Assembly: GCA_017472665.1 (NCBI GenBank)
Contig: JAFUOS010000003.1
Span: 1-64,000, forward strand
Direction: 5' to 3'
DNA length: 64,000 nt
From: Tyzzerella sp.
GTDB lineage: Bacteria; Bacillota; Clostridia; Lachnospirales; Lachnospiraceae
Made by a program: the position numbers and the translations under genes. Under the pieces are notes generated by a model. That model saw only the letters and a list, made by a program, of their open reading frames with translations. It ran no database searches and was not told the DNA's origin. This document shows positions 4,392 through 24,911 of this stretch, piece after piece. Each line of letters opens with the position of its first letter. Positions within the stretch are counted from its first letter, which is position 1.

Positions 4392-4583
4392 TCAACTCTC
4401 TGCTTCCGCTGTGAAAACAAATTTACCATCCACTTGTTCTAGGTTGCCTAATATATACGACGTGCCACCAGTAGTAATGACCCACTTCATATTATTTTCA
4501 TCACCGTCAACTGCAAGTGGAAAAATATCCGGGCATTCGCTTTCCAAGACTTTTATATGTGAATTCTCCGTTTTCCCCAACAA
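4392..4583 (-). pseudogene. GH32 fructosidase remnant (central fragment)
   Basis: The frame offset from the end of the GH32-like gene reads ESECPDIFPLAVDGDENN and then KWVITTGGTSYILGNL. This is the E-C-P motif of GH32 (the Glu is the acid/base) plus the next propeller strands. It closely parallels HSECPDLYPLEV in the giant fructanase upstream. About 60 residues survive; the N-terminal NDPN and RDP motifs and the C-terminal sandwich are missing, and a stop follows at 4392. It overlaps the 3' end of the neighbouring frame (4507-4583). I infer that two GH32-type genes recombined or a deletion fused them. Confidence 0.65.
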
Positions 4584-5760
4584 CAGCTTCTAAGAAAGTT
4601 AATGTTCCGCCATAAATACCGTTTCCATCAAATCCTGCAAAAATCAGTCTATCATTCCATATAGCTGCTTTAGGCACAGATTTGCAAGGAATAATTGGAT
4701 TTTTCGGAATTATCCAATCACTAAAAGGTTTTTTTGAATATTGATAGTACCCTTTTAGGCCCAAACTATAAACCAGATAATAAAATCCATCCTTATAAAA
4801 ATAGTCTGGACATTCCGGCTCCCCTGCTTCTTTTTCCGAAATATAAAGTGGTTCATCTACTTCGCACCATTCCTTGAGATTTTCGGATATCAAATGAGCA
4901 AGACAACCTCTCCCCCTGTCACTTAAACTTGTAGTCAATATCATGTGGAACACGCCTTTCTCATCTTTTACAATTTTCGGATCCCTTGCAGATGGTGCTG
5001 TATATTTGTTACTTAAAGTAAAAGAAAATTCTCTGTCCTTTTCAAAATGAAAACCATCTTGTGAAATCGAACGACAGATTTTTGCCGGACTTCCATCACA
5101 CATTCTCACTGTATAAAAAAGATAATGTATACCATTATCGTATATCCAAGAGCCTGTACAGATAGAACCTTCGGCAGGATCATCAATTGCTACAGCCATA
5201 GGATGAATATTCCAGGTTTCGAAATCATCTGTTGAGATGTGATTCCATTGATGTGCCCCATACCCCCATTTGCTGCCATGATGATGACGGTCTTTCAGAT
5301 ACAACACATGGTATACTCCATTATGGTGATATGGCATGCAGTCACCAACAAAAATATTTCCCTCTGGTTTCCACCCTTCGGCATTGCTAAATGTTCCTAT
5401 AACACTTGGCTCTACTTCGTTTATAATGTGGGATTCCTGTATACGCACCGTACATCCATTATCTATAATTGAACATTTACTTAAATAATGTTCACCACAA
5501 GGCCACTCTTCATCTGCAAGCACTTCATTAACATATAATTCTATTCTGTACGGCAAAATATGTACCTTGATTTTATCTCCAAGTTTTGCTGATGATGACA
5601 AATGAAGCAGTGGTTTGTCCATAAAGTCATATTTAATAGAAAAATCCAACATTCCATTTTCAAAAACACACTGCAGCACTTCTTCGCTATTATATCTGCC
5701 TTCAAATAGTTTGTCCTTTTTGCTAATATCAAAAACAATACAAAAATTATCCCAATTCAT
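4507..5760 (-). CDS. GH32/GH43-clan beta-propeller glycosidase
   Basis: 417 residues. Residues 1-115 look like a beta-sandwich; about 120-400 form a five-bladed propeller of the GH32/GH43 type. Visible motifs are GDCMPYHHNGVYH (place of the GH32 NDPNG box, with Asp as likely nucleophile), SARDPKI (RDP, transition-state stabiliser) and GEPECPDYFY (EC box, acid/base Glu). There is no signal peptide, so it probably acts in the cytoplasm on imported oligosaccharides. Its start overlaps the kinase stop by 14 bp. The last dozen residues (after GENGEF) are read out of frame from the GH32 remnant, so the natural C-terminus is probably lost or replaced. Linkage specificity is unknown. Confidence 0.75.
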   Translation of the reverse strand: MNWDNFCIVFDISKKDKLFEGRYNSEEVLQCVFENGMLDFSIKYDFMDKPLLHLSSSAKLGDKIKVHILPYRIELYVNEVLADEEWPCGEHYLSKCSIIDNGCTVRIQESHIINEVEPSVIGTFSNAEGWKPEGNIFVGDCMPYHHNGVYHVLYLKDRHHHGSKWGYGAHQWNHISTDDFETWNIHPMAVAIDDPAEGSICTGSWIYDNGIHYLFYTVRMCDGSPAKICRSISQDGFHFEKDREFSFTLSNKYTAPSARDPKIVKDEKGVFHMILTTSLSDRGRGCLAHLISENLKEWCEVDEPLYISEKEAGEPECPDYFYKDGFYYLVYSLGLKGYYQYSKKPFSDWIIPKNPIIPCKSVPKAAIWNDRLIFAGFDGNGIYGGTLTFLEAVVGENGEFTYKSLGKRMPGYFSTCS

Positions 5761-7129
5761 TTTTGTGGTCCTCCCTGTAAGTAATTATTTTTTTTGCCTG
5801 CGTCGCCTCAATAACATTGTTACAAACACTTGCATATAATGCTGCTCCTATTGCCGCTTCTTCATTATTACTCGTCAAGTCAACATTCAAATGGAATGTA
5901 TCTGCGAGTAACATTCTTAAAACCTTATTTTTTTGTACAGCATTACCCGAAGCAACAAGTCCCCTAATACGATCCAATTTCATGCAATCAAAATATTTTT
6001 TTAACTCTTCAACCATACCTTGAAGTGTACCTAGAATTAAATTCTCTGGTGTGAGATTTTCACAATCAATCTGTGTTATTGTTCCTCGCAAAGCAGGTTC
6101 CTCCCTTGTACCTGAAAACTGTGTTGACACTTTTAGTGTTCGCTCTTTGGAATAATATTTTAGCGCCAACTCATTCATGACTTCATATTGTGATTTTGGA
6201 TTTTCCATAACCGCCTCTGCGTACTTAAAAAAGAATTTTTCAAGAACAGCATAAGCCTTCCCACCACATAATGCAGAGCCACAAAGCAAATATTTCCCAA
6301 ACAAATATGGTCTTATTTCCAAGTCTTCATCAACTTTTTTAACAGAATCCAAAACCACCGAGATTTGACTTCCTGTTCCAAAATTCACAAGCGCACTTGT
6401 CTTTTCATCCTTAACACTTCCATAAAAACTTGCCTGGTTATCTCCTATGGCGACACTTACAGGGATATTATGATAAAAACCTACAATTTCACCCTCTTTT
6501 GCAATCCTTGGCATAGTAAGGTGCGACAGTTCTAATTGTTCTACGGCCTTACTTTCAAAACAGTTCTTCTGTAGATTGTACAAACCAAAACTTGCTGCAT
6601 TTGTCGGATGTATTAACGGAGTTATATTTCCTGTCAAGTTCATAGCAATATAATCCATTATTGTGCAAAATGTTTTCGCTCTTTTAGGTTCCAAATTATT
6701 AATTTGATTATAAAATAATGTCGAAAATGCATATCCAGGGGAAACAGCATATCCTGTGCGCGCATAAATTTCTTCACGATAAGTTTTGTTCTGAGCAAAC
6801 AATCTATTACTGCGACCATCTTGCCATGTGTATAGCGGAGAAACAAGCTGTCCATTTTCATCCACATATACAACTCCATGCATTTGACCCGTAATTCCAA
6901 TACTTTTAATATTAGGACAATCCTCAATAAAACAATCAATAATCTGTCTTGCTTTATCTGTTATCACCTTTGCATCACATTCACTCAGATCACTATCTGT
7001 AAGTAGTTTCGAATCATTTGCAACAGTACAGGTTTTAATAACTGTATTTTCTTCTATATCGATAACAACAACACTAATATTAGTTGTTCCAATATCAATT
7101 CCTAAAATAGATTCATTAGACAATATCAT
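5747..7129 (-). CDS. FGGY carbohydrate kinase, sedoheptulokinase-like
   Basis: 460 residues. An N-terminal phosphate-binding loop (GIDIGTT, Asp12), then SIGITGQMHGVVYVDENG and LYTWQDGR (about 103-108), catalytic Asp near 229 in VAIGDNQASFYG, and ATP-site glycines in VNFGTGSQ. The GQMHG plus TWQDGR combination is typical of the sedoheptulokinase branch rather than xylulokinase, glycerol kinase or ribulokinase. FGGY kinases transfer phosphate from ATP to an open-chain polyol or ketose. In this fructan-type locus the natural substrate may be a ketose released by the GH32 or GH43 enzymes; that is inference. The gene overlaps the GH32-like gene by 14 bp. Ribosome site AAAGGGAAG. Confidence 0.8.
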   Translation of the reverse strand: MILSNESILGIDIGTTNISVVVIDIEENTVIKTCTVANDSKLLTDSDLSECDAKVITDKARQIIDCFIEDCPNIKSIGITGQMHGVVYVDENGQLVSPLYTWQDGRSNRLFAQNKTYREEIYARTGYAVSPGYAFSTLFYNQINNLEPKRAKTFCTIMDYIAMNLTGNITPLIHPTNAASFGLYNLQKNCFESKAVEQLELSHLTMPRIAKEGEIVGFYHNIPVSVAIGDNQASFYGSVKDEKTSALVNFGTGSQISVVLDSVKKVDEDLEIRPYLFGKYLLCGSALCGGKAYAVLEKFFFKYAEAVMENPKSQYEVMNELALKYYSKERTLKVSTQFSGTREEPALRGTITQIDCENLTPENLILGTLQGMVEELKKYFDCMKLDRIRGLVASGNAVQKNKVLRMLLADTFHLNVDLTSNNEEAAIGAALYASVCNNVIEATQAKKIITYREDHKNELG

Positions 7130-7206: not shown

Positions 7207-10200
7207 TTATTCTAGTACTTGTAATTCCACATTGTTAAATATAGTCTCTGACCAGAATGTATTTAATCCAAAGTAAAAACTTCCATCATATGCTGCTAAC
7301 GACGCATCATGTTGAGTTTCTACAATTACATAATCCTCTGTTCCATGAGGAGCAACCTTATATGTAAGAGTCGAGCTATTTGCATCATACTCGAATCTTA
7401 TGTGGCACTTCCCTGGATTTGTAAGAGTTGGATAATTAGTATACGGCATTGTGACCTCACTCCATGCATCCGAGCCAACTTTGAACAGCTTAAATTGATT
7501 CAGCTCAGGCTGGGTATTCAAACAGATCCAATGCGCACTGACATTTGCTGGGTCCTTGATGCCTACTACCAAACCACCTGCACCCACAGAAGTTACGTTC
7601 AAGTCCGCCTCGTATATCCATGATTTGTTTGATGGTACACTCACCTCTGACACATACCAATCATCCCCTCTTTCAAGGTTCGATGTTTTTAATCCGTCGT
7701 CTGTAATAGCCCAATTTCCACTTACTGCAGACCAACCCGTGAGATTTGTACTAAACTTTTCTGTGAAAATATTTATAGTTGTTTCCTCTGTTTTACCATT
7801 CACCGTATAAGATACTGTATAGCTGCCTTTTTTAGTTCCCTTTAAAGTTACAGAATTTCTAGTTTTTTCACCGACAACTTCCAATCCTTCTGGAATCGTC
7901 CATTCAAACAATGCTGCCCCTGTCATTGGATATATCTCAGCTGATATTGTGAATTCAGTACCTACTTCTACATTTTCTTTCGTTTGTAAAGAGATGTATG
8001 TTTCTACGTATTTGGTTACACTTTCTTGCGTATAGATAGACTTCATATCATATACTGTCAATTCATCAATAGTAACACTTCCACCTTTTGTATAGAATGA
8101 CATACCAACACTTGATTCGTCTGCAAATAATAAATCAACTAAATGTGCATCTCCATCATTTCCAAATGTTTCAATTGCTCCCTTATCTACAATCACACGA
8201 AGTTTTACAGTTCCATCACTTCTTGGTTCTAGTGACCAACTCGAGATATCATTGTCCCAAATACCTGATAATCTCTTATCCAAGATTACCTTCTTTTTTT
8301 GCACATCGTACTTATAAATAGTCTTTTGACCATTGCCAGTTCTAAGTTCAAATCCAAACTCGCTAGCCTCAGCAAAGTTAGAGAAGATTGCTTCAATTTC
8401 GTAAATCTGTCCTGTGAGACCGTTTAAGATATTGGCAGAATCTTCCGCTACCGTTACATTGCTCTTTGTGAGTAATGCCTCGCCACGTAACGATTTTACT
8501 TCGTCTACTGGGTTTTGAACAATCATATAACCACTATCAGTTTTCTTCAAAGTAGTCTCAAGTGGTAATGACAAAATACCGTTCCATCTCTTCGTTGGTA
8601 TTACATTAGGAGCTGTTTCATCCCAAAGCCAATGTACAGAGATTCTTCTTCCACTCGGGTCATTGTAAAATGATTGTGCTGCATAGGCAGTTGCATAGGC
8701 ATCCATATTACCTGCTGCTATTGGTGCCTCTATTCTCTTTTCTGCTTTGAATCTGTAGTAACCATCACTACCCTTTACCATATCTCCGATAACATAGAAT
8801 TTACTTGCTGCAGCATATACCCATTTTGTTTCTCCTGTTTCATTTCCATCTTTGTCTAATACTTCTAATGGATATAAATCAGGACATTCTGAATGTAATT
8901 CACTTCCATCTGCATAAGTTAATTCCTGAATCAAGGTCCATTCTCTTAAGTTTTCAGATACAAAGATACGTCCTCTTCCACCTGCAACTACCATATACCA
9001 TAAATCTTTCTCATCGCCTGGAACCTTAAATATCTTTGGATCTCGAAGACCGGCTTCACCATAGTCAGTTGAAATTGCTGGTAATCCATTTGCATCTCTA
9101 TGTTTCACCCAAGTTACTCCATGGTCTTTTGAATAAGCTACACCTTGCATGAAAGGATCGTTACAATATGTATACATTGCCACGAGTTTTGATTCGCCCT
9201 CTTTATTATCTGTGAAGAAACCACTTGTGTTATTCTCATCCACAGCACAAGATCCTGACCATATTGCACCAAATTCATCCACATCGATTGCCACTGGTAA
9301 TTCTACCCAATTCACTAAGTCATCACTTACAGCATGTCCCCATATCTTAGCATAACCATTTGTTAACTGTGGTAAGTATTGATAAAACATATGCCATGTT
9401 TCATTACTTGTATCATAAACCAGACCATTCGGGTCATTCAGCCAATTGTTTTCAGCTGTAAAATGTAACTGTGGACGATATTCTTCGGTTGACATGTATT
9501 TTGCATCCGCTTTATTTGTGATTACAAGAACAATAGACGACATATCATCATCTTTTGTCATATTGATAATCATCTGGCTTTCACCATATGCTGGTGTAAG
9601 TTCTTTGTTTTCTCCACTCGTCAATGTTCCTTTGTCATAGATTACCCCATTAGCTGCTTTAAGTGCATATGTGATACTTATTTCTTCATCCGCTGTAGCT
9701 GAAACATTCATTTTACTTGTGTTACTTGGCATATATACATCATACACTGGCACACTCTTATCATATTTAGGAGCAAATATAATATCTGTTCCTGATACTT
9801 TCAAATTATTCAGTGTAGGAATGTCATCTATTGTTACCTCTTTGTACATAACATCCTGATATGTAACTGTTGTATTAAAAGTCAACAATCCTAATTTACC
9901 AGAGGTAAAGGTATCATCTGTACCAGCTACCATCAATTTTCCATCCACGTAGCATTTCAAAGAATTTCCTATTGCTTCCACACGTAAATGATAAGTATCT
10001 TTAATCTCTGTATATGCAGTTCCTACATCAACTCCTCCTGGGAATCTGAAGAGACGAACCTGACCAGTTCCTCTATCAATATTCGCTACATAAGAGCCTT
10101 GTGAAGGATTATCGGTTGAACGGAACACTACGGAAGCTGCACCCTGTGCTTGGCCAAAGGTAATGTCTGTTTCATAAACAAAATCACTCGCCATTGTCTG

Positions 10201-13200
10201 AGACAGTGCAAAATTATCAAAAGCACCGTTTGAATATAAACCTTTTGCTGTCTCTACCCAAGTTCCTTGCAAACCATTTAATTCAACCAAATTTGTATTA
10301 AATGCAGATTCAAATTTTGCTACATATGCCTCAGCCTCTGTTGCGTTTTCAAAAATCTGTGCATCTAGGCTCTCTACAGTTGTGGTTGCACCACCATGAC
10401 TTGAGAACAGGATAGAACTTTCTGTCATAGACACTGTATCGCTCATATAACAAATCTTATCATCAAGCAAGAAGTAAACTTTGTTTCCAATTGCAATTAC
10501 TTCAAAATCAACACTGTACGTATTATTTTGCACGCTAGTTTTGTCCAATGTAACGAAGTTCGACCATGTATTTGAACCATCTTTCAACGCAGCTATTAAC
10601 TGATATTGGTTATCACCACATCGTTCGAGATAAATCAAATGTTCATTGCTACTATCCGAAGATACATAAAGTCTCGTTTGTGCCCAATCTGCTTGTGCGT
10701 TTAAGGTTAATTTACCTTTCACACTGTAGTTAGACTCTTTCAATACATTGCCTTCGTATACTACAGAATCTACTTTACGTTCAGCATCTACATTGCCATC
10801 ATTTGTAAATGTATATGCTCCATGTTGTGTTTGAGCAAAATGGTTTTCAGTTAATCTTGTTCCGACTTCTTCATACATTACATTCTGATAGGTTGCTGCT
10901 GTCTCACATGTCAACAAGCCAAGCTTTCCTGATGCATACGTATTGTCGGTTGCATCAATTATCAATTCACCATCCACGTAAAGTTTTAAATTATTTCCTA
11001 TCGCCTCTACACGCAAATGGTAGTTATCTTTAGGCGTTACTGTTTTTGTGGCTGTACCAACATCCAATCCTTCTGGAAATTTGAATAGTCGAACAGACCC
11101 GTCATGTCTAGCAATATTTACAACATAAGAACCGTCTTTTGGATTGTCCTGTGAACGGAACACTAAAGCAGCACACCACCAAGGCTTTTCAAATGTCACG
11201 TCTGTTTCATAGACAAAGTCACTTGCTATAGTTTGAGACATTGCAAAATTATCTCCTCGACCAATTGAATACAATCCTCTTGCTGTCTCATTCCAAACAC
11301 CATTAATACCAGTTAATTTGTCTAAGTTCGTCTTAAATTCATGTTTAAATTGCTCCACATACTTTTGGGCATTTTCTGCGCTCTTAAAGATTTGTCCATT
11401 CAGGTTCTCCACAGTTGTAGTGGCACTATTAAGACATGAAAACTTAACCGTACTGTCTGCCATAGCAACATCATCACTTACGTAACAAATCTTTCCATCA
11501 AGCACAAAATATAACTTACTTTCTGTCACAATAATTTCAAAATCTATACTTTTCGCATATGTGTCTGCACTTACGCTATAACTTTGAATCAAGACTCCGG
11601 CTGCTCCACTCCATGGATCCCATGGCGCCCATCCAGCACCATTATTCCACCAACCGTTTAATCTGAATGTTTTCAGCTCTGGATTGGTGCGTTCAAAGAA
11701 AAGCATATGTTCATGCGTACTGTCAGAAGAGATATAAAATCTTGCTTGAGCCCAGTCCGCTGTTGATTCTAACGTGAGCGTTCCCTTCACGCTATAATTA
11801 GAAGCTCTCATTTCGCTTCCGTTATATGTTACAGAATCTAACATATCAGTGTTTCCACTGTTTGTTAATTGATATACACCACTTGATGTTTCTTTGAAGT
11901 TGTTGGTTGTTAAACCAATTTTTACCTTCTCTGCTACATCTTCTTTAGCCTGCTCAATCTTATCATTTGCATTTTTCCCTTTGAGTATTTTATAATCGCT
12001 TGCTGTCAGAACCGTGTTAAACGAGAAGATACCTACTGCACTCTTTTCATCTTCAAGTCCGCATGTCTCCCAAAGTACTAACTCGCCATTTACGTAGAAA
12101 TAGTAATCCATGCCATCTCGTACAACTGCTAGTTTCACTTTGTCACTGCCTGTAAATTTCATGCCATTCACATTAGCAGAAACCGCATTACCCCAGTCAT
12201 CGCTTTGTCCTGTTGGCTGATATACTACACCTACTGTGTTCGCTGTCATTTGTGGTGTCATATCTACATAGAATTTCACCATTTCAGTCTTACCATTAAG
12301 CATTAGTCCAAATTTTGGATAACCGTCATTGTTCAAAACTTCACTCACATTGATTTCTGTCTCGAAATAGAACTTATTAGTAAATGTGTCATTTAAATAA
12401 GCATATCTTGGTACTCCGCCAAACATTTCAATGGTTGCGTTCTTACCTTCATCTTTGATTAATTCAATACCATTTGTAGTCTTATAAGTAACACCATCAC
12501 CTACTGTCACACCAAAATTCTCACCTTTGAAAATCTTGTCATACAGATAAGCGGACCATACTTTGTAGCCTTCCTGATTCAAGTGAATATCATTGTTTGC
12601 GCCAAACAACTCTGTCTTTACATTCTTTGTATTAGAATCCACTAACAAGTCGAATGTATCTATTCCCTGTACATAATCCAAAGATTCGCACAATGCTTTT
12701 TCGCCTTGTACTAATGCTTCATATTCAGGGTCTAACCATTGTCCATCTACATACTTCACTGCTGCAGGAAGTGAATAGATATAATAAATTTCTGCATCTG
12801 GACGGTCAGTGTGAATTTTTTCAAATAATTCTTTCAAATTCTCTACAACTTCATCGCCATCGCGTCCCCATGCTCTTACATCATTTTCACCAACCGAAAT
12901 CACAAATCTGTCTGCTTCAAATGGTTTTACAAGTGTGTCATAAGCATATAACCAGTCTGCTGTGGTTGTTCCACCAATACCTACGTTATAACCATTTACA
13001 TATTTTGTTAATCCAGTTTGATTCTCCCAATCGAGCCAGAATACATAAGGATCCATATGGGAATGTCCTAAAATTAGAGTTCCTCCTTGAGCAGTGCAAT
13101 CACGGTCTACAAAATATTCTTGGTATCTTGCATCTATTTGTGCCTGGAATATTGACTCATAAGGTTTTTCACTCTTTGTTGCCAGATATTCCTCTATCTC

Positions 13201-16200
13201 TTTTTGCGTTTCAAAGATTTGACCATCTAAGTTCTTCACTGTTGTAGTAGCACTCATATTGGAACCTTCATTATTGATGAAGCATGAGAATTTCACCGTA
13301 CTTTCTGTCATAGATTCCACTCTGTCATTTGAGTAACAAATCTGATCATCCATTAAGAAATACATCTCATTCCCAATTACAATAACTTCAAAGTCCATGT
13401 AATCTTTAGAACCATTAATTTCCACAGGGGAAACCATTTGCCAGTCATTCCATATGTTTTCGTCATTTTTCGACATGCTGAATATATGATACATATTTTC
13501 ACTATATCGTTCTAACGCAACTACATATTCATTTTGAGGGTCTGATGAAACTAAAATTCTTGCCTGTGACCAGTTTGTATTAGCACTTAGTGATATTGTA
13601 CCTTTCATGCTATAATAAGGTGCTTTCACGACTTGTTTCCCACGTATTACGTCGTCCACTTTACCCTCATTTTTAGACTCAGCAGTAAGTGTATATACAT
13701 CTTCTGATGTTTCCTTGAAATAATTTGTAGTTAATCTAAATTTCGCATCTTCTTTTGCTGTTGCAATATAACTTTCAGCTTCAGTGCCTGTGTATACTGT
13801 ATAATTGCTTGCTGTTAATACAGTATTAAATGAGAAGATACCAACAGCGCTCTTTTCGTCAGTAAATGCATAATCTTCTACAAGTACGAGTTCATCATTT
13901 ACGTAGAAATAGTATGCTTTTCCATCACGAGCAACTGCTAATTTAATCTTATCTTCATTTGTGAACTTCATGTTATCCACATTTGCAGATACCGAATTAG
14001 CCCAGTCATCTGCACCATTTGTTGGCTGATGTACCACACCTACTTTTGTAGCTGTCATTTCTGCTGTCATGTCCACATAGAATTTCAAGCTTTCAGTTTC
14101 TCCGTTTAAGATTAAACCAAACTTAGGATATTTATCCCCATTCAAAACTTCACTTACAGTAATTTCTGTTTCAAAATAAAGTTTATCAGTAAATGTGTCA
14201 TTCAAATAAGCATATCTTGGTGCGCCACCAAAGATATCGACAGTTGGGGTTTCACCCTTATCGTTTCTTAATTCGATACCATTTGTTGTTTTGTAATAAG
14301 TATCGCCTACCTTAGTCACACCAAAGTTCTCGCCCTTGAAAAGCAAGTCATACAAATGATCTGACCATACTTTGTAACCATCTGCATTTAAATGAATATC
14401 TTTGTTTGGACGATATAACTCTGTCTTTACTTCGTCTGTATCGGCGTCTACCAGCAAATCAAACATGCTGATGCCTTCTACATATCTCAAAGAGTCAACT
14501 AATTCTTTTTCGCCTTTCACTAATGCAGCGTATTTTGAATTTAACCATTTTCCATCTTTATATTTTGTTTGTGCAGGAAGCGAATAAATATAATAGATTT
14601 CTGCTTCTGAATGGTCATTGTGGATTTTTTCAAATAACTCTGCAAGTCTTCCAACAACCTCTTCTCCTGTAGCACCCCATCCTGTGACGTCATTTTCACC
14701 AAGAGAGATTACAAATCTATCTGCACCAAATGGTTTCACAAGTGTGTCATAAGCATATAACCAATCCATAGTAGTCGTTCCGCCGATACCTACATTGTAA
14801 CCATTTACATAGTTCGTTAAGCCCGTTTGTGATTCCCATTCATTCCAGAATGCACGATCCATATGAGAGTGTCCTAAAAGAAGAGTTCCTCCCTTGCCAG
14901 TGCAATTATTATCTACAAAGTATTCTTGATACATTGCATCAATTCTATCTTGGAATGGAGATTCGTATGCTTTTTCACTCTTTGTTGCCAGATAAAACTG
15001 TACAGCTTCTGAACTCTTAAAGAGTTGTCCATCGAGATTTTCTACTGTTGTAGTTCCATTGTTATAGCTTGCAAACTTCACTGTACTTTCTTTCATAGAA
15101 ACTCTGTCACTTGTATAACAGATTTCATCGTCGACCAAGAAATAAATCTTGTTTCCATCTGCAACCACTTCAAAATCAACACTGTTTTTGCTGCTGCTTG
15201 CTTCCGCATGAGCAATCAATTTCCACTCGTTCCAAACTTGCTCGTTATCTTTTGACATCGTGAAAATCTGATATTTATTCTCAGCAGTCTGTTCCAATGC
15301 AATCACATGCTCATTCTTAGGATCAGAAGAAATGAGAATTCTTGCCTGTGACCAATCCTCAGCATCTGTTAAGGTTAATTTACCTTTGATACTGTAATGA
15401 GATTCTTTTAATATTGTTCCGCCGTAGATTACGTCGTCAACCTTACTTTCATCTTTCGATTTTGTTGTAAGTGTATAGACTCCATCTTTTTTCTCTTCAA
15501 AGTAATTTGTAGTTAATCCATATACCCAGAAAGACTCGGCATCCTTTGTTGCCAGATATTTTTCCACGTCTTCTGCTTTCGAGAAAATCTGTCCGTCCAA
15601 ATCTTCTACGATTGTAGTTGCATTCTTGTAACCTGCGAATTTCACAGTACTTTCTGTCATAGAAACACTGTCGCTTGTATAACAAATCATATCATCAATT
15701 AAGAAATAGACTTTATTTCCATTTGCAATCACTTCAAAGTCAATACTGTTGCGATCACCATTGATTTCAGCTCCCACAATTGATGTCCAGTTATTCCAAA
15801 TTTCTTCATTGTTCTTTGACATTGTGAAAATCTGATACTTATTCTTAGCAGTCTGCTCCAATGCGATGACATACTCATTTTTAGGATCCGAAGAGATCAG
15901 TATTCTTGCCTGTGACCAATCTTTGGAATTCTTTAAAGTCAGTTTTCCTTTGATGCTGTAATAAGGTGTCTTTAACACTTGTCCAGCATATTTCACATCA
16001 TCTACTTTGCTTTCATCTGCGGAATTTGTCTTAAGCTTATATACTCCATCGCTTGATTCTGCAAAGTAATTTGTTGTTAAGCTGAACTTGTTAAATTCAG
16101 CAACATCTTCCTTTGCCTCATTCAGTAGCTTGTCAAATTTCGTTCCACTGGTTACCAGTTTGTAATTTGTAAGCTTCAAGGATGTACCAAATGAGAATAC

Positions 16201-17097
16201 ACCTGCCGCGCCTGCCTTATTTGATAAGTCGGAACCTGTTGCAGCCAATTCACCATTTACATAGAAATAATAGGTTTTTCCATCTCGAAGCAATCCAAGT
16301 TTCACTGTTTTTTTCGATAAATTCAGTTTTTCATCCAAAGAGAAATAATCTTGATTTGCCCAATCATCATCTCCTCCTGAAACCTGGTGAACCGCACCTA
16401 CAGAAGAAACCACTTTTTTGGTGCTCATATCCAGATAGAACTTCACCATTTCGGTACCATCATTTGTCATAATACCGAATTTTGGATATTTCTCTGATTT
16501 CAGGATGTCTGTCACTTCTACTTCGGTTTCAAAGTAGAACTGCTTTGCGCTTAAATCATTGATGTACGCATAAAGTGGTGTTCCCTTTGTTGCATCTAAT
16601 GTCAAGTATGGAAATAATCCTTTGTCCGTCTTGAAATTAATCACATCACTGGATTCATAATCTCCCGATTTTCCGAAAAAGTTACCCTTTCCTACAATCA
16701 GCGAGAATTTTGCCAGAACCTTGACATCTTTTGCCGGCATTTTAAAAGTTGTTTCACTTTTTTTCTTATTTACAGTCAATGACTTGAGTTCATAGCCGTC
16801 ATCCGGTTTAACGGTCAGCACAATCTCATCGCCTTCTGCAGCTTCCGTTTTGTTAGCCGTTACGCTGCCATGTGCGCTTTTCAGAATCTGGACCTCATAA
16901 ATCCCGTCATCCTGCTCTGCTGAAACATCTTCATCATCTTCTTCTGAAGTATCTTTATCAACATTCTCTACCGGAATATCATTTCCTGTATTCTCATCTT
17001 TCGATATGCAGGAAAAGAGGCCTATCACTATTCCCAAAAGCAAAAGAAGTAACAAAATCACCAGCGTCGCTTTTTTCTTTTTGTTATCTTCGTTCAT
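7207..17097 (-). CDS. Giant surface fructanase with two SGNH esterase domains
   Basis: 3296 residues. The N-terminus has a hydrophobic stretch (about 11-28) ending in LFSC, a plausible lipobox with Cys30, so it is likely a surface lipoprotein. An InlB/bacterial-repeat segment (about 62-132) follows. Then come jelly-roll-like modules of three kinds (A, B, C) in the order B1-A1-[A2-SGNH1-B2]-[A3-SGNH2-B3]-A4-C1-A5-C2. Each SGNH domain (about 735-930 and 1335-1530) has GHSHMD for the nucleophile block, GENDV, and a DIHLN late block with Asp and His. A beta-sandwich (about 2425-2540) precedes a GH32 propeller with NWLNDPNG (about 2550), LRDPKIF (about 2680) and SECPDLYP (about 2735), a GH32 C-terminal sandwich, an Ig-like segment and a last jelly roll. 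No LPXTG is present. Predicted role: exo-fructan hydrolysis coupled to deacylation at the cell surface. Substrate not proven. Confidence 0.85.
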   Translation of the reverse strand: MNEDNKKKKATLVILLLLLLLGIVIGLFSCISKDENTGNDIPVENVDKDTSEEDDEDVSAEQDDGIYEVQILKSAHGSVTANKTEAAEGDEIVLTVKPDDGYELKSLTVNKKKSETTFKMPAKDVKVLAKFSLIVGKGNFFGKSGDYESSDVINFKTDKGLFPYLTLDATKGTPLYAYINDLSAKQFYFETEVEVTDILKSEKYPKFGIMTNDGTEMVKFYLDMSTKKVVSSVGAVHQVSGGDDDWANQDYFSLDEKLNLSKKTVKLGLLRDGKTYYFYVNGELAATGSDLSNKAGAAGVFSFGTSLKLTNYKLVTSGTKFDKLLNEAKEDVAEFNKFSLTTNYFAESSDGVYKLKTNSADESKVDDVKYAGQVLKTPYYSIKGKLTLKNSKDWSQARILISSDPKNEYVIALEQTAKNKYQIFTMSKNNEEIWNNWTSIVGAEINGDRNSIDFEVIANGNKVYFLIDDMICYTSDSVSMTESTVKFAGYKNATTIVEDLDGQIFSKAEDVEKYLATKDAESFWVYGLTTNYFEEKKDGVYTLTTKSKDESKVDDVIYGGTILKESHYSIKGKLTLTDAEDWSQARILISSDPKNEHVIALEQTAENKYQIFTMSKDNEQVWNEWKLIAHAEASSSKNSVDFEVVADGNKIYFLVDDEICYTSDRVSMKESTVKFASYNNGTTTVENLDGQLFKSSEAVQFYLATKSEKAYESPFQDRIDAMYQEYFVDNNCTGKGGTLLLGHSHMDRAFWNEWESQTGLTNYVNGYNVGIGGTTTMDWLYAYDTLVKPFGADRFVISLGENDVTGWGATGEEVVGRLAELFEKIHNDHSEAEIYYIYSLPAQTKYKDGKWLNSKYAALVKGEKELVDSLRYVEGISMFDLLVDADTDEVKTELYRPNKDIHLNADGYKVWSDHLYDLLFKGENFGVTKVGDTYYKTTNGIELRNDKGETPTVDIFGGAPRYAYLNDTFTDKLYFETEITVSEVLNGDKYPKFGLILNGETESLKFYVDMTAEMTATKVGVVHQPTNGADDWANSVSANVDNMKFTNEDKIKLAVARDGKAYYFYVNDELVLVEDYAFTDEKSAVGIFSFNTVLTASNYTVYTGTEAESYIATAKEDAKFRLTTNYFKETSEDVYTLTAESKNEGKVDDVIRGKQVVKAPYYSMKGTISLSANTNWSQARILVSSDPQNEYVVALERYSENMYHIFSMSKNDENIWNDWQMVSPVEINGSKDYMDFEVIVIGNEMYFLMDDQICYSNDRVESMTESTVKFSCFINNEGSNMSATTTVKNLDGQIFETQKEIEEYLATKSEKPYESIFQAQIDARYQEYFVDRDCTAQGGTLILGHSHMDPYVFWLDWENQTGLTKYVNGYNVGIGGTTTADWLYAYDTLVKPFEADRFVISVGENDVRAWGRDGDEVVENLKELFEKIHTDRPDAEIYYIYSLPAAVKYVDGQWLDPEYEALVQGEKALCESLDYVQGIDTFDLLVDSNTKNVKTELFGANNDIHLNQEGYKVWSAYLYDKIFKGENFGVTVGDGVTYKTTNGIELIKDEGKNATIEMFGGVPRYAYLNDTFTNKFYFETEINVSEVLNNDGYPKFGLMLNGKTEMVKFYVDMTPQMTANTVGVVYQPTGQSDDWGNAVSANVNGMKFTGSDKVKLAVVRDGMDYYFYVNGELVLWETCGLEDEKSAVGIFSFNTVLTASDYKILKGKNANDKIEQAKEDVAEKVKIGLTTNNFKETSSGVYQLTNSGNTDMLDSVTYNGSEMRASNYSVKGTLTLESTADWAQARFYISSDSTHEHMLFFERTNPELKTFRLNGWWNNGAGWAPWDPWSGAAGVLIQSYSVSADTYAKSIDFEIIVTESKLYFVLDGKICYVSDDVAMADSTVKFSCLNSATTTVENLNGQIFKSAENAQKYVEQFKHEFKTNLDKLTGINGVWNETARGLYSIGRGDNFAMSQTIASDFVYETDVTFEKPWWCAALVFRSQDNPKDGSYVVNIARHDGSVRLFKFPEGLDVGTATKTVTPKDNYHLRVEAIGNNLKLYVDGELIIDATDNTYASGKLGLLTCETAATYQNVMYEEVGTRLTENHFAQTQHGAYTFTNDGNVDAERKVDSVVYEGNVLKESNYSVKGKLTLNAQADWAQTRLYVSSDSSNEHLIYLERCGDNQYQLIAALKDGSNTWSNFVTLDKTSVQNNTYSVDFEVIAIGNKVYFLLDDKICYMSDTVSMTESSILFSSHGGATTTVESLDAQIFENATEAEAYVAKFESAFNTNLVELNGLQGTWVETAKGLYSNGAFDNFALSQTMASDFVYETDITFGQAQGAASVVFRSTDNPSQGSYVANIDRGTGQVRLFRFPGGVDVGTAYTEIKDTYHLRVEAIGNSLKCYVDGKLMVAGTDDTFTSGKLGLLTFNTTVTYQDVMYKEVTIDDIPTLNNLKVSGTDIIFAPKYDKSVPVYDVYMPSNTSKMNVSATADEEISITYALKAANGVIYDKGTLTSGENKELTPAYGESQMIINMTKDDDMSSIVLVITNKADAKYMSTEEYRPQLHFTAENNWLNDPNGLVYDTSNETWHMFYQYLPQLTNGYAKIWGHAVSDDLVNWVELPVAIDVDEFGAIWSGSCAVDENNTSGFFTDNKEGESKLVAMYTYCNDPFMQGVAYSKDHGVTWVKHRDANGLPAISTDYGEAGLRDPKIFKVPGDEKDLWYMVVAGGRGRIFVSENLREWTLIQELTYADGSELHSECPDLYPLEVLDKDGNETGETKWVYAAASKFYVIGDMVKGSDGYYRFKAEKRIEAPIAAGNMDAYATAYAAQSFYNDPSGRRISVHWLWDETAPNVIPTKRWNGILSLPLETTLKKTDSGYMIVQNPVDEVKSLRGEALLTKSNVTVAEDSANILNGLTGQIYEIEAIFSNFAEASEFGFELRTGNGQKTIYKYDVQKKKVILDKRLSGIWDNDISSWSLEPRSDGTVKLRVIVDKGAIETFGNDGDAHLVDLLFADESSVGMSFYTKGGSVTIDELTVYDMKSIYTQESVTKYVETYISLQTKENVEVGTEFTISAEIYPMTGAALFEWTIPEGLEVVGEKTRNSVTLKGTKKGSYTVSYTVNGKTEETTINIFTEKFSTNLTGWSAVSGNWAITDDGLKTSNLERGDDWYVSEVSVPSNKSWIYEADLNVTSVGAGGLVVGIKDPANVSAHWICLNTQPELNQFKLFKVGSDAWSEVTMPYTNYPTLTNPGKCHIRFEYDANSSTLTYKVAPHGTEDYVIVETQHDASLAAYDGSFYFGLNTFWSETIFNNVELQVLE
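11955..15525 (-). repeat. Tandem 1.8-kb coding duplication (A-SGNH-B unit)
   Basis: Within the giant gene, about 15525-13760 and about 13745-11955 encode the same order of modules: A jelly roll, linker with LATKSEKxYES, SGNH domain, B jelly roll, AKED linker. Shared blocks include YQEYFVD, YVNGYNVGIGGTT, DWLYAYDTLVKPF and GENFGVT. Several stretches are nearly identical in DNA too, for example the region encoding DTLVKPF. Boundaries are estimated from the protein alignment by eye. It points to a fairly recent unequal crossover and may make this region unstable or prone to assembly collapse. Confidence 0.75.
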
Positions 17098-17107
17098 TTT
17101 GCACCTC

Positions 17108-20100
17108 CTATTTCAAAATAAATCTACTGTTAAGGTCATTTGGTACACGTCCTTTGAAGTACCACCACGGATCTCCATTAAATTTCATAGCGTTATCCGT
17201 AATCTCAGTCACACTCTTGTAACTTTGATCACAGGTCTTGAACGCAAAACCTAAAGCAGCCGTTTTGTTTCCGATCACTTCGTCTGGCACAAAGATTTCT
17301 ACTACGGTTGTATAGGCTCCAGTCGTCTTATCCTCTGTTGTCTTCATTGCTTTCAGAAGATATCCGCTGTCACCAAATGATGTACATGCAAACTGGTCAT
17401 CATTGATATAGAATTCTGCATTTGTGTTATAATGCCAGCTTCCGCCCCACTTATACTGTTTCGTCTGATATTGGTGTGCCACCTTGTACGCCAGATATAC
17501 ACCTTTTTCATTTCGATAGCCATACACAGACATCTCATTTCCGTTAGAACTATCTTTCTGACTTGCTACAAGTGTATTCTCTAAATCCCAGTCGCTCAAA
17601 TCAGCATCCAATGCAATCTCAGAAACATAAGGATAGATATATTCCTCTACATTTTCCTTCTCTGTCTCATAAGCGTTTACTGTAATCTCTGCCTCTGTAT
17701 TAAAGAAGAACAATCCTGGAATAGAGCCTTCATCAAGACCCTCTACGTCGATGTCGCCCAAAACATATCTGCCGTTAACCAGCATCACAAATTGATCCTC
17801 ATAACGGATGAGTTCCACATTTACATACTCTTCCGCAGATAAACCTAGACCCGATGTATCAAAGGTGTTGCTGGAATTTGTATCCCACTCCCAGTTTGTA
17901 CCTGAAAACTCCGTGGTATGGGCAGTCACTCTTCCTATCGAATTATAATTTGCCCCTGCAATATCAAAATAATATGCAAGCAGAGAATCCATCGACTTGG
18001 ATGCAACACCGAATTTCGGATACTTGTCATTATTTAAAATGTCTCTAACCTTGATATCAACATTGATATAATAAGCATCTGACAATTCATCTCCAAAGTA
18101 GTAGAACTGGTTTGAACCTCCAGTCTGGGTAAGGGAATCGCCGTCCACTTCAAATCCGCCTGTCATAACTGTCTGACCATCGGCATTAATTCGATACCAT
18201 GAAGTCGGATCTGAGAACGAAGAACCTACCATCAATGTCCATGTCGTTCTTCCTGAAGCCTCATAGGCTTTTCTCGTATTAAAGGAAGGAGCACAGATTA
18301 AGCTGTCCGGTTGTTCCTCCAGATTCAAAGCACTATATGGAATATATGCCTCCACATCATATCCTTCACATTTAGAAGAATTCAACTCTCCATAGATATG
18401 AACTTTGCTTACGGTATCAATATAGGTGCGGATGTATTCATAATCCTTTGCAGAATTAACACCAATCCATCCTTCTGTTGTTCCATCTAAGCCATATCGA
18501 ACCTGAATGACATTGGCATTTAATTTGTCTGTTCCACCCTCAGCAAGCTGAATCTCCACAGAAGTATTCTGGTAAATACTCTGGGTTGGATTAACGAACA
18601 CATTGGTATCGTTTGAATGGAAACCGAAGAAGATACCTTCTTCTGTCATCTTGGAATACATCGTCATAGTAACGCCGTTTGTATCAGCGAATTCTATTTT
18701 TTCGCCTGTGTATTCTTCTGCTTTTACTTCCCCGTCAAACGTTACCGTGTCATCTTCAGGAACCTCTATCTGCCATGTACCATCGCCTTCGGCTTCTTCT
18801 AATTCCTCTTGGTTATCTCGTTTTGCCATTACCGCAATTTCGGAAATTGCATACTCAGTAGACATCGCAGGCATTTTGATTTCAATGGATTTTACTTTCA
18901 TCTCATCAAATGTGAAAGCAACTGCGCCGCCTGGTATTACATAACCATCCTCTGTATAATACTTATCCCAGTCAAATGCCAAATCTTTATAAGTAACTTT
19001 CTCTCCATTTTCGAGAGTCAATTTCACAGAACTGATGTTACTGAACATATAGTCATAGTCCTGGCTATTGTAGATTGCGAGGCCCGAAACTGCCTGTGCT
19101 TCCTCGAAATCCAGAGTAATCTTGGAAGACTTTCCAGCAAAAACAGCTTCCTTGATAAACGAAACATTATGATAATCAATGAGCTTATCATTCAGACAAG
19201 CAGCATCCGCATCATCCACAAGTCCCTTTGCCTGAACCTTTGCCTTTGGTGCCACGTTTTCATATTGATATGTAGTCAGTGGCATGAAAGAATAAGATGG
19301 TCCATTGGCTACCGGCACTAACATTCCGTCATCATTCTTTGTCCAATTCAGTTCGTCTACGGCGATTCCTCTGGTAGAGTTACCGTTTACGCGGTCTAAG
19401 TGGGCATGATAAACAATGTAATCCTGTCCATTTTTGTTTACGACACTACAGTGTCCTGTTCCGGATGCCCAGCTCCAATGGCTTTCTGCAAACAGCAGGA
19501 ATCCGCCTTCGTCCTGAGACAGCTTTGTAAATGGTCCTGTAGGTGTCTCTCCAACTGCCACTCTTACAGAATACGTTTTCTGATTAAAAGAGTTCGCAGA
19601 ATACAGCAGATAATACAAATCCGATTCTTCGTTGTAGAGCATGTAAGGAGCTTCGTTTACGCTTCCTTCATTCATATCGTAAGAAATTTCAGAATCTAAT
19701 GTGTATTGATTTGGGGTTGTCAGACGATATACCTCATCATAATTTACAGTATAATCATCATTTAGCGCTATTGCATAAATATTGGATTCCGTTATACCCT
19801 GGTCTTTCCATAAATCATGACAAAAATATACATACTTTTTACCCGTCTTAGGATCCTCAAAAGGATTCAAGTCAATGATCTTCATATATCCATTGGTTTG
19901 GGTTTCATACAATGGATGGTCCGGTGACATTTTCGAAAAATCAAATACCGGCTCATAACACACGATTTTCTTTTCTGCATCAACTACAACCGGCTCCTTG
20001 CCCAAGTATTCGTTATACTGAACAAATGGACCGGCTGGCGATTCTGAAACTGCTATATCGCCATAGAAGTTAAGAGAATTTTCAAAACTAGTGTCGTATC

Positions 20101-20536
20101 GATTCGCTGTGTAGAACATATAATAAAGTTTTGTTTCTTCATCATAAATCACTTCCGGTGCCCAGTAATTTGAAAACGCATACGAAATTGTCGTATATCC
20201 GGTTGCCTCGTCATATTTCCCATCCGGATTTAATGCAACTCCTGCACACTCCCAGTTTACTAAGTCCTTGGATTTGTACGCAAAATATCCTGCTCCGCCG
20301 AGTTCGTCCGAAGTAATATACATATAGTAATATCCGGCGTCCTCTCCCTCGGTGATGTAAATCACATCCGGGTCGGCCCCAACTGTCGTCAGGTCATTTT
20401 GGTAAAAGAGCTCACTCCCTGCATCCACTGAATCCACTTTTTTCTCTTTCTTGCCGAACAAGAAGATCCCTGCAGACAGTGCTGCCACGACAACTACTAC
20501 AGCTGCTATTGGAAGCAATATTTTTTTGTTTTTCAT
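17108..20536 (-). CDS. Membrane-anchored GH43 with CBM-like modules
   Basis: 1142 residues. Residues 6-28 form a hydrophobic anchor after MKNKK with no lipobox, so it is probably a signal-anchor protein facing outward. The GH43 propeller (about 40-410) shows GADPDVIY near 56 (general base Asp), a central Asp in IIDLNPFED, and SVNEAPYMLY near 300 (acid Glu). It is followed by an F5/8-type discoidin domain (about 425-575), a CBM9-like domain (about 597-787), a B-type jelly roll also found in the giant fructanase (about 795-965) and a second CBM9-like domain (about 972-1142). The family covers arabinofuranosidases, xylosidases and galactanases; specificity is not readable. Its ATG overlaps the permease stop (TAATG) and the fructanase gene starts 10 bp downstream. 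Confidence 0.85.
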   Translation of the reverse strand: MKNKKILLPIAAVVVVVAALSAGIFLFGKKEKKVDSVDAGSELFYQNDLTTVGADPDVIYITEGEDAGYYYMYITSDELGGAGYFAYKSKDLVNWECAGVALNPDGKYDEATGYTTISYAFSNYWAPEVIYDEETKLYYMFYTANRYDTSFENSLNFYGDIAVSESPAGPFVQYNEYLGKEPVVVDAEKKIVCYEPVFDFSKMSPDHPLYETQTNGYMKIIDLNPFEDPKTGKKYVYFCHDLWKDQGITESNIYAIALNDDYTVNYDEVYRLTTPNQYTLDSEISYDMNEGSVNEAPYMLYNEESDLYYLLYSANSFNQKTYSVRVAVGETPTGPFTKLSQDEGGFLLFAESHWSWASGTGHCSVVNKNGQDYIVYHAHLDRVNGNSTRGIAVDELNWTKNDDGMLVPVANGPSYSFMPLTTYQYENVAPKAKVQAKGLVDDADAACLNDKLIDYHNVSFIKEAVFAGKSSKITLDFEEAQAVSGLAIYNSQDYDYMFSNISSVKLTLENGEKVTYKDLAFDWDKYYTEDGYVIPGGAVAFTFDEMKVKSIEIKMPAMSTEYAISEIAVMAKRDNQEELEEAEGDGTWQIEVPEDDTVTFDGEVKAEEYTGEKIEFADTNGVTMTMYSKMTEEGIFFGFHSNDTNVFVNPTQSIYQNTSVEIQLAEGGTDKLNANVIQVRYGLDGTTEGWIGVNSAKDYEYIRTYIDTVSKVHIYGELNSSKCEGYDVEAYIPYSALNLEEQPDSLICAPSFNTRKAYEASGRTTWTLMVGSSFSDPTSWYRINADGQTVMTGGFEVDGDSLTQTGGSNQFYYFGDELSDAYYINVDIKVRDILNNDKYPKFGVASKSMDSLLAYYFDIAGANYNSIGRVTAHTTEFSGTNWEWDTNSSNTFDTSGLGLSAEEYVNVELIRYEDQFVMLVNGRYVLGDIDVEGLDEGSIPGLFFFNTEAEITVNAYETEKENVEEYIYPYVSEIALDADLSDWDLENTLVASQKDSSNGNEMSVYGYRNEKGVYLAYKVAHQYQTKQYKWGGSWHYNTNAEFYINDDQFACTSFGDSGYLLKAMKTTEDKTTGAYTTVVEIFVPDEVIGNKTAALGFAFKTCDQSYKSVTEITDNAMKFNGDPWWYFKGRVPNDLNSRFILK

Positions 20537-21390
20537 TATCCTTTTTCACCTCCTGCTGTAATACCCTCAATAAAGTATTTCTGCGCAAAAATATAAATTA
20601 ATACCGTCGGAACAATCGCAACTACATTGGCCGCCAAGATGCTTGGCCAGTCGCCCGAGTACCGATCGGAAAAGATAGATACTGCAATCTGCAGTGTCTG
20701 ATAATCAGATTTCAGGTAAATCAATGGTCCAAAGTAGTCATTGTATCCGCCTACAAATCCTAAAATTCCCTGCGACAAAAGAGCAGGTTTCGAAAGCGGC
20801 AGAACGATACGCAAAAAGCACTGGAATGGACCAAGTCCATCTATTTTTGCCGCCTCGATAATGGAGTCCGGAATCGCATAGAACGACTGTCTCATGAAGA
20901 ACACACAAGCCGCCGCACCAAACATTCCAGGAATCATAAGTGGAAGAAACGGTGCATTTGCCGTCACTCCAAGAGCATCCCAAATAACATAAGAAGGCAC
21001 GAGTGTCACAATACCCGGAACCATCATGGTAGCAATGAGAAGCCCAAACATAATATCCTTTCCTCTGAATCGCATTTTTGCAAATGCAAATGCAGAAAGA
21101 GAAGACACAAAGAGACCTATCAGCGTAGGTGGAATAATAATCCACAGAGTGTTGAAAAATCCTTCCACAATCGATGTGGATGAAGCAACCTTTTCAAATG
21201 CATTCATGTAACCGCGAAGGGTCACTCCCAGTTTTGGCAACCATGTAAACGTACCAATGGTTTCTTCTTTCTGTTTTAAAGAAGAAATCAACATGATTGC
21301 AAAAGGAAGCAGCACAAAGAGTGCATACAGAATCAGGCCCACATATGTCAGGCATTTACGAATGATTACGTTTTTATTCTTTTTAATCAT
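20536..21390 (-). CDS. Sugar ABC transporter permease (MalG/AraQ type)
   Basis: 284 residues with about six transmembrane helices and the inner-membrane EAA loop (SIIEAAKIDGLGPFQ) near residue 190, which docks the ATPase. It belongs to the CUT1 family that imports oligosaccharides with a family 1 binding protein. It overlaps the other permease gene by 8 bp (ATGATTAA) and the downstream GH43 gene by 1 bp. No ATPase gene is in the locus, so a shared MsmX/UgpC-type ATPase elsewhere is assumed. Confidence 0.9.
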   Translation of the reverse strand: MIKKNKNVIIRKCLTYVGLILYALFVLLPFAIMLISSLKQKEETIGTFTWLPKLGVTLRGYMNAFEKVASSTSIVEGFFNTLWIIIPPTLIGLFVSSLSAFAFAKMRFRGKDIMFGLLIATMMVPGIVTLVPSYVIWDALGVTANAPFLPLMIPGMFGAAACVFFMRQSFYAIPDSIIEAAKIDGLGPFQCFLRIVLPLSKPALLSQGILGFVGGYNDYFGPLIYLKSDYQTLQIAVSIFSDRYSGDWPSILAANVVAIVPTVLIYIFAQKYFIEGITAGGEKG

Positions 21391-22303
21391 AATTCACCCA
21401 CTTTCTCTGCAGTTTGAAATTCACAATGGTGACAGCACCAATCAGCACTGCAATCAGCCAGCCGGTAGCTGTAGCCACACCTAAATCCGAACCGCCGGAA
21501 GCATTAAACAGCTTCCTGTACAGGTAAAATACAACGGTGAGGCCCTGATAATCCGGTCCTCCATCCGGGGTCATAACCTGGAATTGGGCAAATGCCTGAA
21601 GCGCCCCATTGACTCCCGTAACTAACAGGAAGAATATAGTAGGCGATATGATTGGAATCGTGATTTTGAAAAACTTCCTCAGTCCACTTGCACCGTCAAT
21701 ATCTGCTGCTTCATACAGATCCCTTGACACATTCGTGAGAGCTGACGTGAGCAGGATAATATTGTATCCCATGCCGCCCCATACCAGCAGTACAAACATT
21801 GCCACTCTATAATAATCTGCCGAGCCGAGCCAGTCGATAGGTTCTTTAATCCAGCCCCATTCCATTAACGTGGAATTCAAAACTCCATAATTGTAGTCGT
21901 AAATCCACTTCCACATGAAGGTAACTGCTACCATGGAACACACATATGGAACGAAATATACTGTTTTAAATCCCTTCGCTCCCTTTACACCTGTCGCAAT
22001 CAGTCCGCTGATGACCAAAGAGAGCACTAGCGAAACGATAGAGGCAAACAGAACATAGACCGTATTGCCCAAAGCCTTATAAAATAATTCATCCTCCAAT
22101 ATGGCCTTAAAGTTCTCAAGTCCAATAAAGGCTGCACTGTCTAAACGCAGGCCTTTGAATGTATGAAAACATAAGTAAACAGATAAAAGCAGGGGAATCA
22201 GCCCAAAGATCGTAAAACCAAGCAGCGGAATATTAGCGAACACAATTCCCTGAATTTCTTCTCCCTTTATTTTTTTCTTGGTTTTTTGCATGTTTTTATT
22301 CAT
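21383..22303 (-). CDS. Sugar ABC transporter permease (MalF/UgpA type)
   Basis: 306 residues from the ATG at 22303. An upstream in-frame ATG at 22369 is less likely because it lies deep inside the binding-protein gene. The start overlaps the binding-protein stop by 8 bp (ATGAATAA), a classic coupling arrangement. Six hydrophobic helices and an EAA loop (LYEAADIDGASGLRKF) near residue 210 identify a CUT1 permease. It pairs with the MalG-type permease to form the membrane channel for the oligosaccharide that the surface enzymes release. Confidence 0.9.
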   Translation of the reverse strand: MNKNMQKTKKKIKGEEIQGIVFANIPLLGFTIFGLIPLLLSVYLCFHTFKGLRLDSAAFIGLENFKAILEDELFYKALGNTVYVLFASIVSLVLSLVISGLIATGVKGAKGFKTVYFVPYVCSMVAVTFMWKWIYDYNYGVLNSTLMEWGWIKEPIDWLGSADYYRVAMFVLLVWGGMGYNIILLTSALTNVSRDLYEAADIDGASGLRKFFKITIPIISPTIFFLLVTGVNGALQAFAQFQVMTPDGGPDYQGLTVVFYLYRKLFNASGGSDLGVATATGWLIAVLIGAVTIVNFKLQRKWVNYD

Positions 22304-24871: not shown

Positions 24872-24911
24872 CATAAACCCTCCTTTCTTTTTACTTTTAT
24901 TTCATTTTTAT

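Follow-up and report, generated by a model that had tools for sequence, protein, structure and literature searches.

A Tyzzerella protein, probably surface anchored, that joins a GH32 fructanase cassette to two atypical SGNH esterase-type domains

The exo-levanase SacC of Bacillus subtilis, about 680 residues long, is among the described enzymes closest to the protein considered here. It is an extracellular glycoside hydrolase of family 32 (GH32) with a CBM66, and the extracellular GH32 enzymes of Anaerostipes (A. hadrus GH32-4 and A. butyraticus GH32-3) bear CBM66 too; the available text of PMC6560043 and PMC7833758 links these proteins to degradation of fructan or FOS. An esterase and a glycoside hydrolase can likewise share one chain, as in CE15-GH8 of Bacteroides eggerthii, which excerpts of PMC8417218 place in a PUL. 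The gpPUL, as defined in the accessible part of PMC5320581, unites enzyme, transporter and regulator in one locus.

The window, meaning the whole 64,000-nucleotide stretch of Tyzzerella sp. DNA that was analysed, belongs to a draft genome of 1.66 Mb in 29 contigs that is 65% complete. On its minus strand, to which all coordinates within the chain refer, 7207..17097 is a single unbroken reading frame of 3296 codons with an ATG start and AGGAGG 6 bases 5' of the ATG. An earlier note on this DNA had given the length and position correctly, with no strand, and the motifs it listed (GHSHMD, GENDV, DIHLN, WLNDPNG, RDP and ECP) could all be located. Pfam recognizes a pair of SGNH domains and a single GH32 domain, and the note's central claim, an anchored fructanase whose chain also carries domains of esterase type, is supported. 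Over the whole chain, Lipase_GDSL_2 (6.5e-28) and PF06439 (4.3e-8) each match two stretches. From N to C terminus the order is anchor, Flg_new_2, A1, B1, B2, SGNH1, A2, B3, SGNH2, A3 and B4, followed by C1, B5, C2, a linker domain, GH32, a PKD-like stretch and C3, with module boundaries taken from profiles built in this analysis and coordinates moved by 5 to fit the ATG.

The N terminus (aa 1-30, 17008..17097) has a hydrophobic segment at aa 10-29, followed by Cys30 in the lipobox-like sequence GLFSC. A sister protein of the same genus, P0006 of genome G302, has the hydrophobic segment and lacks this Cys, and for this reason a membrane anchor is a safer statement than a lipid anchor; of the "lipid or membrane anchor" proposed earlier, the hydrophobic part stands and the lipid part is less safe. 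Beyond it lies a Flg_new_2 or InlB B-repeat-like stalk (aa 67-133, 16699..16899; Pfam 3e-12), and the chain is probably surface anchored.

Eleven modules were counted with the profiles: three A (A1, aa 137-321, 16135..16689; A2, aa 921-1108, 13774..14337; A3, aa 1524-1711, 11965..12528), five B (B1, aa 334-522, 15532..16098; B2, aa 523-711, 14965..15531; B3, aa 1117-1313, 13159..13749; B4, aa 1723-1916, 11350..11931; B5, aa 2077-2266, 10300..10869), and three C (C1, aa 1917-2078, 10864..11349; C2, aa 2262-2421, 9835..10314; C3, aa 3111-3294, 7216..7767). This agrees with the "at least ten jelly-roll modules" of the earlier note in number, whereas the fold is supported by sequence for C, weakly for A and not for B. 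When the three C modules and three modules of relatives were searched as one profile against the PDB, the CBM66 of B. subtilis levanase (4azz/4b1l/4b1m) was matched at E 1.6e-35, and the best match outside that levanase had E 0.13. The C modules are thus related by sequence to SacC, the founding member of CBM66, and they flank the GH32, C1 and C2 preceding it and C3 following. Their presence makes it more credible that the GH32 half acts on fructan. Membership alone leaves the ligand unfixed; one CBM66 binds xanthan and, in the text available from PMC11002231, not fructan. Module A is related to C at E 2.8e-4 (hhalign, probability 41%) and to LamG at E 0.01, and module B to C at E 0.048 and to A at E 0.06. 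Neither module has a significant match in the PDB, the best E values being 0.01 for A and 0.038 for B, and with the similarity of A weak and that of B insignificant, the jelly-roll label is unestablished for both. Among the loci searched with the module profiles, A and B are confined to this locus and its G302 counterpart, and C to GH32-bearing chains.

SGNH1 (aa 715-925, 14323..14955; Pfam 9.5e-14) and SGNH2 (aa 1317-1528, 12514..13149; Pfam 1.2e-15), assigned by motifs and alignment as well, score 52.7 and 58.9 bits against the Lipase_GDSL_2 cut-off of 32.9, in matches that begin at profile position 17-19 and leave block I unscored. GHSHMD occurs at 742 and 1344, GENDV at 800 and 1403, and DIHLN at 900 and 1503. 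Ser of block I (placed by alignment with the G302 domains), Gly of block II, Asn of block III and His of block V occupy conserved columns in both copies, as Ser744, Asn802 and His902 in SGNH1 and Ser1346, Asn1405 and His1505 in SGNH2. The canonical DxxH of block V is found in neither copy: the Asp is displaced by one residue to H-2 (Asp900, Asp1503), Lys899 and Asn1502 stand at H-3, and alignment to 6njc and 2hsj sets Lys899 opposite the Asp of DxxH. The domains are therefore "complete-looking", as had been claimed, in Ser, Gly, Asn and His, but not in the place of the Asp. Of the two findings that the earlier note had named as refuting its reading, a missing Ser-Asp-His triad is half realized, through this displacement, and an inactive propeller is not, as the propeller looks active. 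In an iterated SGNH profile (33 rows, 22 distinct domains from the loci collected), 18 of the 20 other domains carry Asp or Glu at H-3; of the remaining two, one shows Tyr at that place and the other lacks an aligned His.

Between SGNH1 and SGNH2, dN/dS is 0.16 (NG86) or 0.22 (LWL85), with dS near saturation; both domains are under purifying selection and show no sign of decay. The DxH spacing of block V occurs in active CE20 enzymes, whose triad is water mediated (available text of PMC9487903), and in AlgJ/AlgX, among which AlgJ enzymes are active (excerpts of PMC12313940), and CE2, which also shows that the active site of an SGNH enzyme may serve for binding as well, includes members that work as Ser-His dyads (accessible part of PMC2661963). 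Given the purifying selection, and given that active CE20 and AlgJ enzymes also have DxH, the two domains can be regarded as atypical esterases that are probably active, and we rate esterase activity as moderately likely. Matches to SGNH1 were obtained in 3 of 10 genus genomes (E 1e-5) and in 2 of 299 family genomes (E 1e-10, own genome counted), and the SGNH profile matched 7 of 391 class genomes (E 1e-12, own genome counted), of which the six others have their match in frames of 217-383 aa. In one further chain, P0007, an SGNH domain with canonical residues accompanies a GH43. A G302 chain (L055) has two Pfam-recognized SGNH-like domains that the iterated profile missed; by eye, these have GDG at block I, which costs them the Ser position, E where block III should have its Asn, and neither DxxH nor its His at block V, and they look inactive.

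The GH32 domain consists of an N-terminal catalytic propeller (aa 2545-2863, 8509..9465; Pfam 1e-52, 180 bits against a cut-off of 22.1) and a C-terminal domain (aa 2866-3017, 8047..8502; Pfam 4.3e-22, 79.3 bits against 21.9). Before it lies the linker domain (about aa 2428-2530, 9508..9816), defined by alignment as common to P0005 and L027 and with no Pfam match over the cut-off, and after it a PKD-like stretch (aa 3054-3098, 7804..7938) at E 0.017, under the curated cut-off. Endo-inulinases carry NEPNG, and the NDPNG box found here, in NWLNDPNG at 2551, favors an exo-type beta-fructosidase. With RDP at 2685 and ECP at 2737 the catalytic trio is complete: Asp2555 as nucleophile, Asp2686 as stabilizer and Glu2737 as acid/base, roles that are set out in the accessible text of PMC6560043. 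The trio aligns with that of the exo-inulinases 8i12 and 1y4w, 8i12 being the best PDB match (E 5.1e-62), and dN/dS against the GH32 of genome G300 is 0.12-0.18. The single propeller described earlier is thus confirmed by Pfam and by three aligned catalytic acids, and the domain is very probably active.

The breadth of GH32 relatives was drawn from genome samples, and a contig scan for them yielded 4 loci. GH32N matches at E 1e-30 are found in 206 of 397 genomes of the family sample, and among the matches listed, which do not include our own, all frames have 315-585 aa. Matches to the GH32 of this chain are fewer: 8 of 397 family genomes (E 1e-40) and 12 of 398 phylum genomes (E 1e-45), own genome counted in each, and 3 of 10 genus genomes (E 1e-20), where identity exceeds 32% only in the own genome and in G300. 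An SGNH domain was absent from the fetched stretches of about 4 kb at 28 of 28 other GH32 loci when searched by profile; these come from genus, family and phylum searches (L010, L011, L030-L036 and L064-L082, with G300 and L027-L029 excluded). GH32 was confirmed in all of them and C modules in six (L030, whose frame extends beyond its stretch, L034, L065, L066, L068 and L069). In L065, L068 and L069, SGNH-free chains of some 1300 aa, the order C-C-GH32-C is that seen around GH32 here except for B5. In the C-C-GH32 chain of a chicken Pararuminococcus (L027, 49% identity), no SGNH was seen in the part before the contig end.

The gene stands in a minus-strand run composed of a GH43, a solute-binding protein, two permeases, a surface GH43, the 3296-aa gene, an FGGY kinase and a GH32-like gene. 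The GH43 without a visible signal peptide (23978..24874) has as its closest PDB entry 4qqs (E 2e-75), an enzyme with alpha-L-arabinofuranosidase activity. It is followed by the extracellular solute-binding protein (22296..23963), ABC permeases (21383..22369 and 20536..21390) and a surface GH43 with a hydrophobic N terminus (17108..20536; Pfam 6.6e-29) that itself contains one A module (iE 1.4e-15). No weight is given to in-frame TAGs flagged in some of the GH43 frames compared, as in L050 the TAG proved to be the stop codon of that gene. A divergent AraC-family regulator lies on the plus strand (25113..26012), and the locus accordingly has the polysaccharide-degrading enzyme, transport system and regulator by which a gpPUL is defined.

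On the other side of the giant gene are the FGGY sugar kinase (5747..7129, minus strand), with a xylulokinase model as its nearest, under that model's cut-off, and a 417-aa GH32-like protein without NDPNG (4507..5760, minus strand). The kinase was dropped as a pointer to the sugar, as none of the 12 NCBIfam models listed matches it above its cut-off; its one relative in the genus at E 1e-40 is in G302 (45%; 2 of 10 genomes, own counted), at a different locus and adjoining an apparent glycyl-radical-type enzyme. In the GH32-like protein, which at E 1e-20 was matched in 1 of 10 genus genomes, its own, GDCMPYHHNG replaces NDPNG, and the N terminus is extended by about 130 aa. It was dropped as proof of intracellular fructoside use, given that in butyrate producers GH32-like proteins lacking NDPNG showed no activity towards FOS, levan, inulin or arabinan (available text of PMC7833758). 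Between the giant gene and the kinase, 7161-7201 forms a near-perfect hairpin of 18-19 bp (-24.5 kcal/mol, z -9.3); with its T-run on the plus-strand side, it does not qualify as a standard terminator of the operon, but it makes co-transcription of the kinase and GH32-like gene with the 3296-aa gene uncertain.

The two halves of the chain have separate relatives within the genus. Residues 1-1872 align with P0006 of G302 at 46.6% identity. This protein, from an orthologous operon, likewise has anchor, Flg_new_2, A, B and SGNH modules, but it has 2576 aa and three SGNH domains with canonical DxxH, and it has neither GH32 nor a CBM66-like module. Residues 2264-3110 align instead at 62.9% identity, over 849 columns, with a fructanase cassette in P0005 of G300 (Tyzzerella sp. 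RGIG2081, goat colon; JAFQRJ010000030.1), the named record whose GH32 is nearest to this one. P0005 shares the CBM66-like, linker and GH32 cassette and the company of SGNH; it differs in an SGNH of another subtype with canonical DGLH and in its BNR_2, dockerin and DUF2961 domains (DUF2961 corresponding to GH172, whose enzymes act on alpha-D-fructo- and D-arabinofuranosides), and profiles found no A or B modules in its sequence, which ends at the contig end. Judged by these alignments, the chain is a chimera of two ready-made cassettes. As an SGNH domain shares its chain with GH32 in G300 too, the pairing arose repeatedly or was reshuffled.

The G302 operon is conserved from regulator, GH43, solute-binding protein and two permeases through the surface GH43 (78% identical) up to the giant protein, with kinase and GH32-like gene absent at that place, and G302 (88% complete) has no match to the GH32 of the chain at E 1e-20. 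An SGNH orthologue without GH32, together with module A in the surface GH43, indicates that the SGNH half belongs with the GH43 locus; what varies is the fructanase half, which looks like an addition to an esterase/GH43 system. A fusion of two genes by misassembly could be suspected in a draft of this completeness and fragmentation, with two relatives carrying one half each. It is exceedingly unlikely, however, because the cassette joint was itself duplicated and then diverged, as seen in the pairs B4-C1 and B5-C2 (55.6% identity), and because the gene contains no exact direct repeat of at least 31 bases; in addition, the frame is unbroken, each of six relatives' loci tested has 0 or 1 31-mer in common with it, and G300 too has SGNH and GH32 in a single chain.

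Giant chains are found elsewhere in the genus. G302 has three more, with similar N termini (L055:4950-13580, 2876 aa; L056:3825-13250, 3141 aa; L057:9461-15661, at least 2067 aa), each following an apparent solute-binding protein, two permeases and a surface-GH43 relative of about 600 aa; one has a GH43 and the two degenerate SGNH-like domains, and another a GH43. The genus thus multiplies the operon plan of transporter, surface GH43 and giant chain. The G300 locus L025 (299-9322 of JAFQRJ010000030.1) encodes a contig-cut chain of 3008 aa, with BNR_2, SGNH, CBM66-like, GH32, dockerin and DUF2961, that is possibly stranger than the 3296-aa chain. In the own genome, a second locus on contig 19 (L054:3196-15766), by eye parallel to the G300 locus L012/L024, has a GH127-like protein, a transporter, a GH43 relative and a CBM9-SGNH protein of 1644 aa that has the canonical spacing, as DNVH.

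It is somewhat better than an even bet that the chain is a membrane-tethered, multicatalytic surface enzyme of a gpPUL, in which a fructanase was added to an esterase/GH43 system; we infer its activities, substrates and localization from sequence. Two ready-made cassettes would then share one membrane tether. The C-terminal cassette (CBM66-like, linker, GH32, CBM66-like) would bind fructan chain ends, from which GH32 may remove beta-D-fructofuranosyl units by a retaining mechanism. The N-terminal cassette, with A and B modules and two SGNH domains, would belong to the neighboring GH43 system and could take acyl groups, most likely acetyl, off a furanoside-rich plant glycan, through a Ser-His pair whose assisting Asp has the spacing DxH instead of DxxH. 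Several bonds of the same plant material could in this way be served from one tether, and freed oligosaccharides would be imported through the ABC transporter and then trimmed inside by GH43, possibly also by the GH32-like protein. The substrates of GH43, kinase and SGNH domains are guesses, and it is unlikely that both activities meet on one molecule.

The earlier note had favored such a meeting, with SGNH domains deacylating one acylated fructan before GH32 trims it. The two domain types do share a chain, here as in P0005, and this substrate is possible because O-acetylated plant fructans have been reported (available text of PMC12457904) and an FT-IR band of a fructose-rich polysaccharide was assigned to O-acetyl (excerpts of PMC12405078). 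The coupling is nonetheless not borne out and distinctly unlikely: G302 keeps SGNH, GH43 and transporter without GH32, although by our own yardstick the esterase of such a system should occur only with the fructanase, and SGNH is lacking from the stretches of all 28 other GH32 loci, the six chains with CBM66-like modules included. Quite improbable, too, is a machine for a single, so far undescribed acylated plant heteroglycan with beta-fructofuranosyl and arabinofuranosyl units, in which the GHSHMD/DxH pair would be the first of a new family of displaced-Asp esterases.

It could also be speculated that the SGNH domains only bind or support, leaving GH32 as sole catalyst. The usual place of the catalytic Asp is taken by Lys899 and Asn1502, block I reads GHSHMD with the Pfam match starting behind it, the L055 pair indicates that such loss occurs in this genus, and a CE2 active site can serve for binding. 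Yet Ser, Gly, Asn and His, and the Asp at H-2, are kept in both copies under a dN/dS of 0.16-0.22, and active SGNH enzymes without the canonical Asp are known (as far as PMC9487903, PMC2661963 and PMC12313940 are available), which makes a non-catalytic role rather doubtful. For GH32 and the CBM66-like modules, another furanoside is conceivable as target, for instance a D-arabinofuranoside or a mixed glycan, given that the closest GH32 shares its chain with DUF2961 and BNR_2, that the operon enzymes are GH43 and that a fructan-ignoring CBM66 exists (available text of PMC11002231). This is very improbable against a complete GH32 motif set with an exo-inulinase as best match and a CBM66 profile matching the levan-binding founder.

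If the fructanase addition to an esterase/GH43 system is correct, the chain is an example of how a glycan locus already present in a gut bacterium can have a fructanase cassette grafted onto its surface protein, and its genus builds giant chains again and again, out of SGNH, GH43, GH32 and DUF2961 parts. Two questions follow: does deacylation help animal-gut bacteria to use fructan, and can two SGNH domains whose Asp is displaced work as esterases? Full-text searches of open-licence papers brought up no fructanase with its own esterase domain and no SGNH-GH32 chain; in the available text of a biofilm review that names both, SGNH appears in a reference title only and GH32 only for SacC.

Compared with the described CBM66-bearing fructanases, of which that of A. 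butyraticus is encoded by a gene of 4140 bp (available text of PMC7833758), the present chain has 3296 aa, two SGNH domains, eight A and B modules and a hydrophobic anchor. CE15-GH8 of B. eggerthii combines other families and, in the excerpted text of PMC8417218, no GH32. CE20 and AlgJ/AlgX enzymes resemble the SGNH pair in the DxH of block V, but they are otherwise distinct families, CE20 having GQSNM at block I (accessible parts of PMC9487903 and PMC12313940) where GHSHMD is found here. The parts are thus of known kinds, esterase-glycosidase chains on one side and CBM66-GH32 proteins on the other, and it is their combination that looks new.
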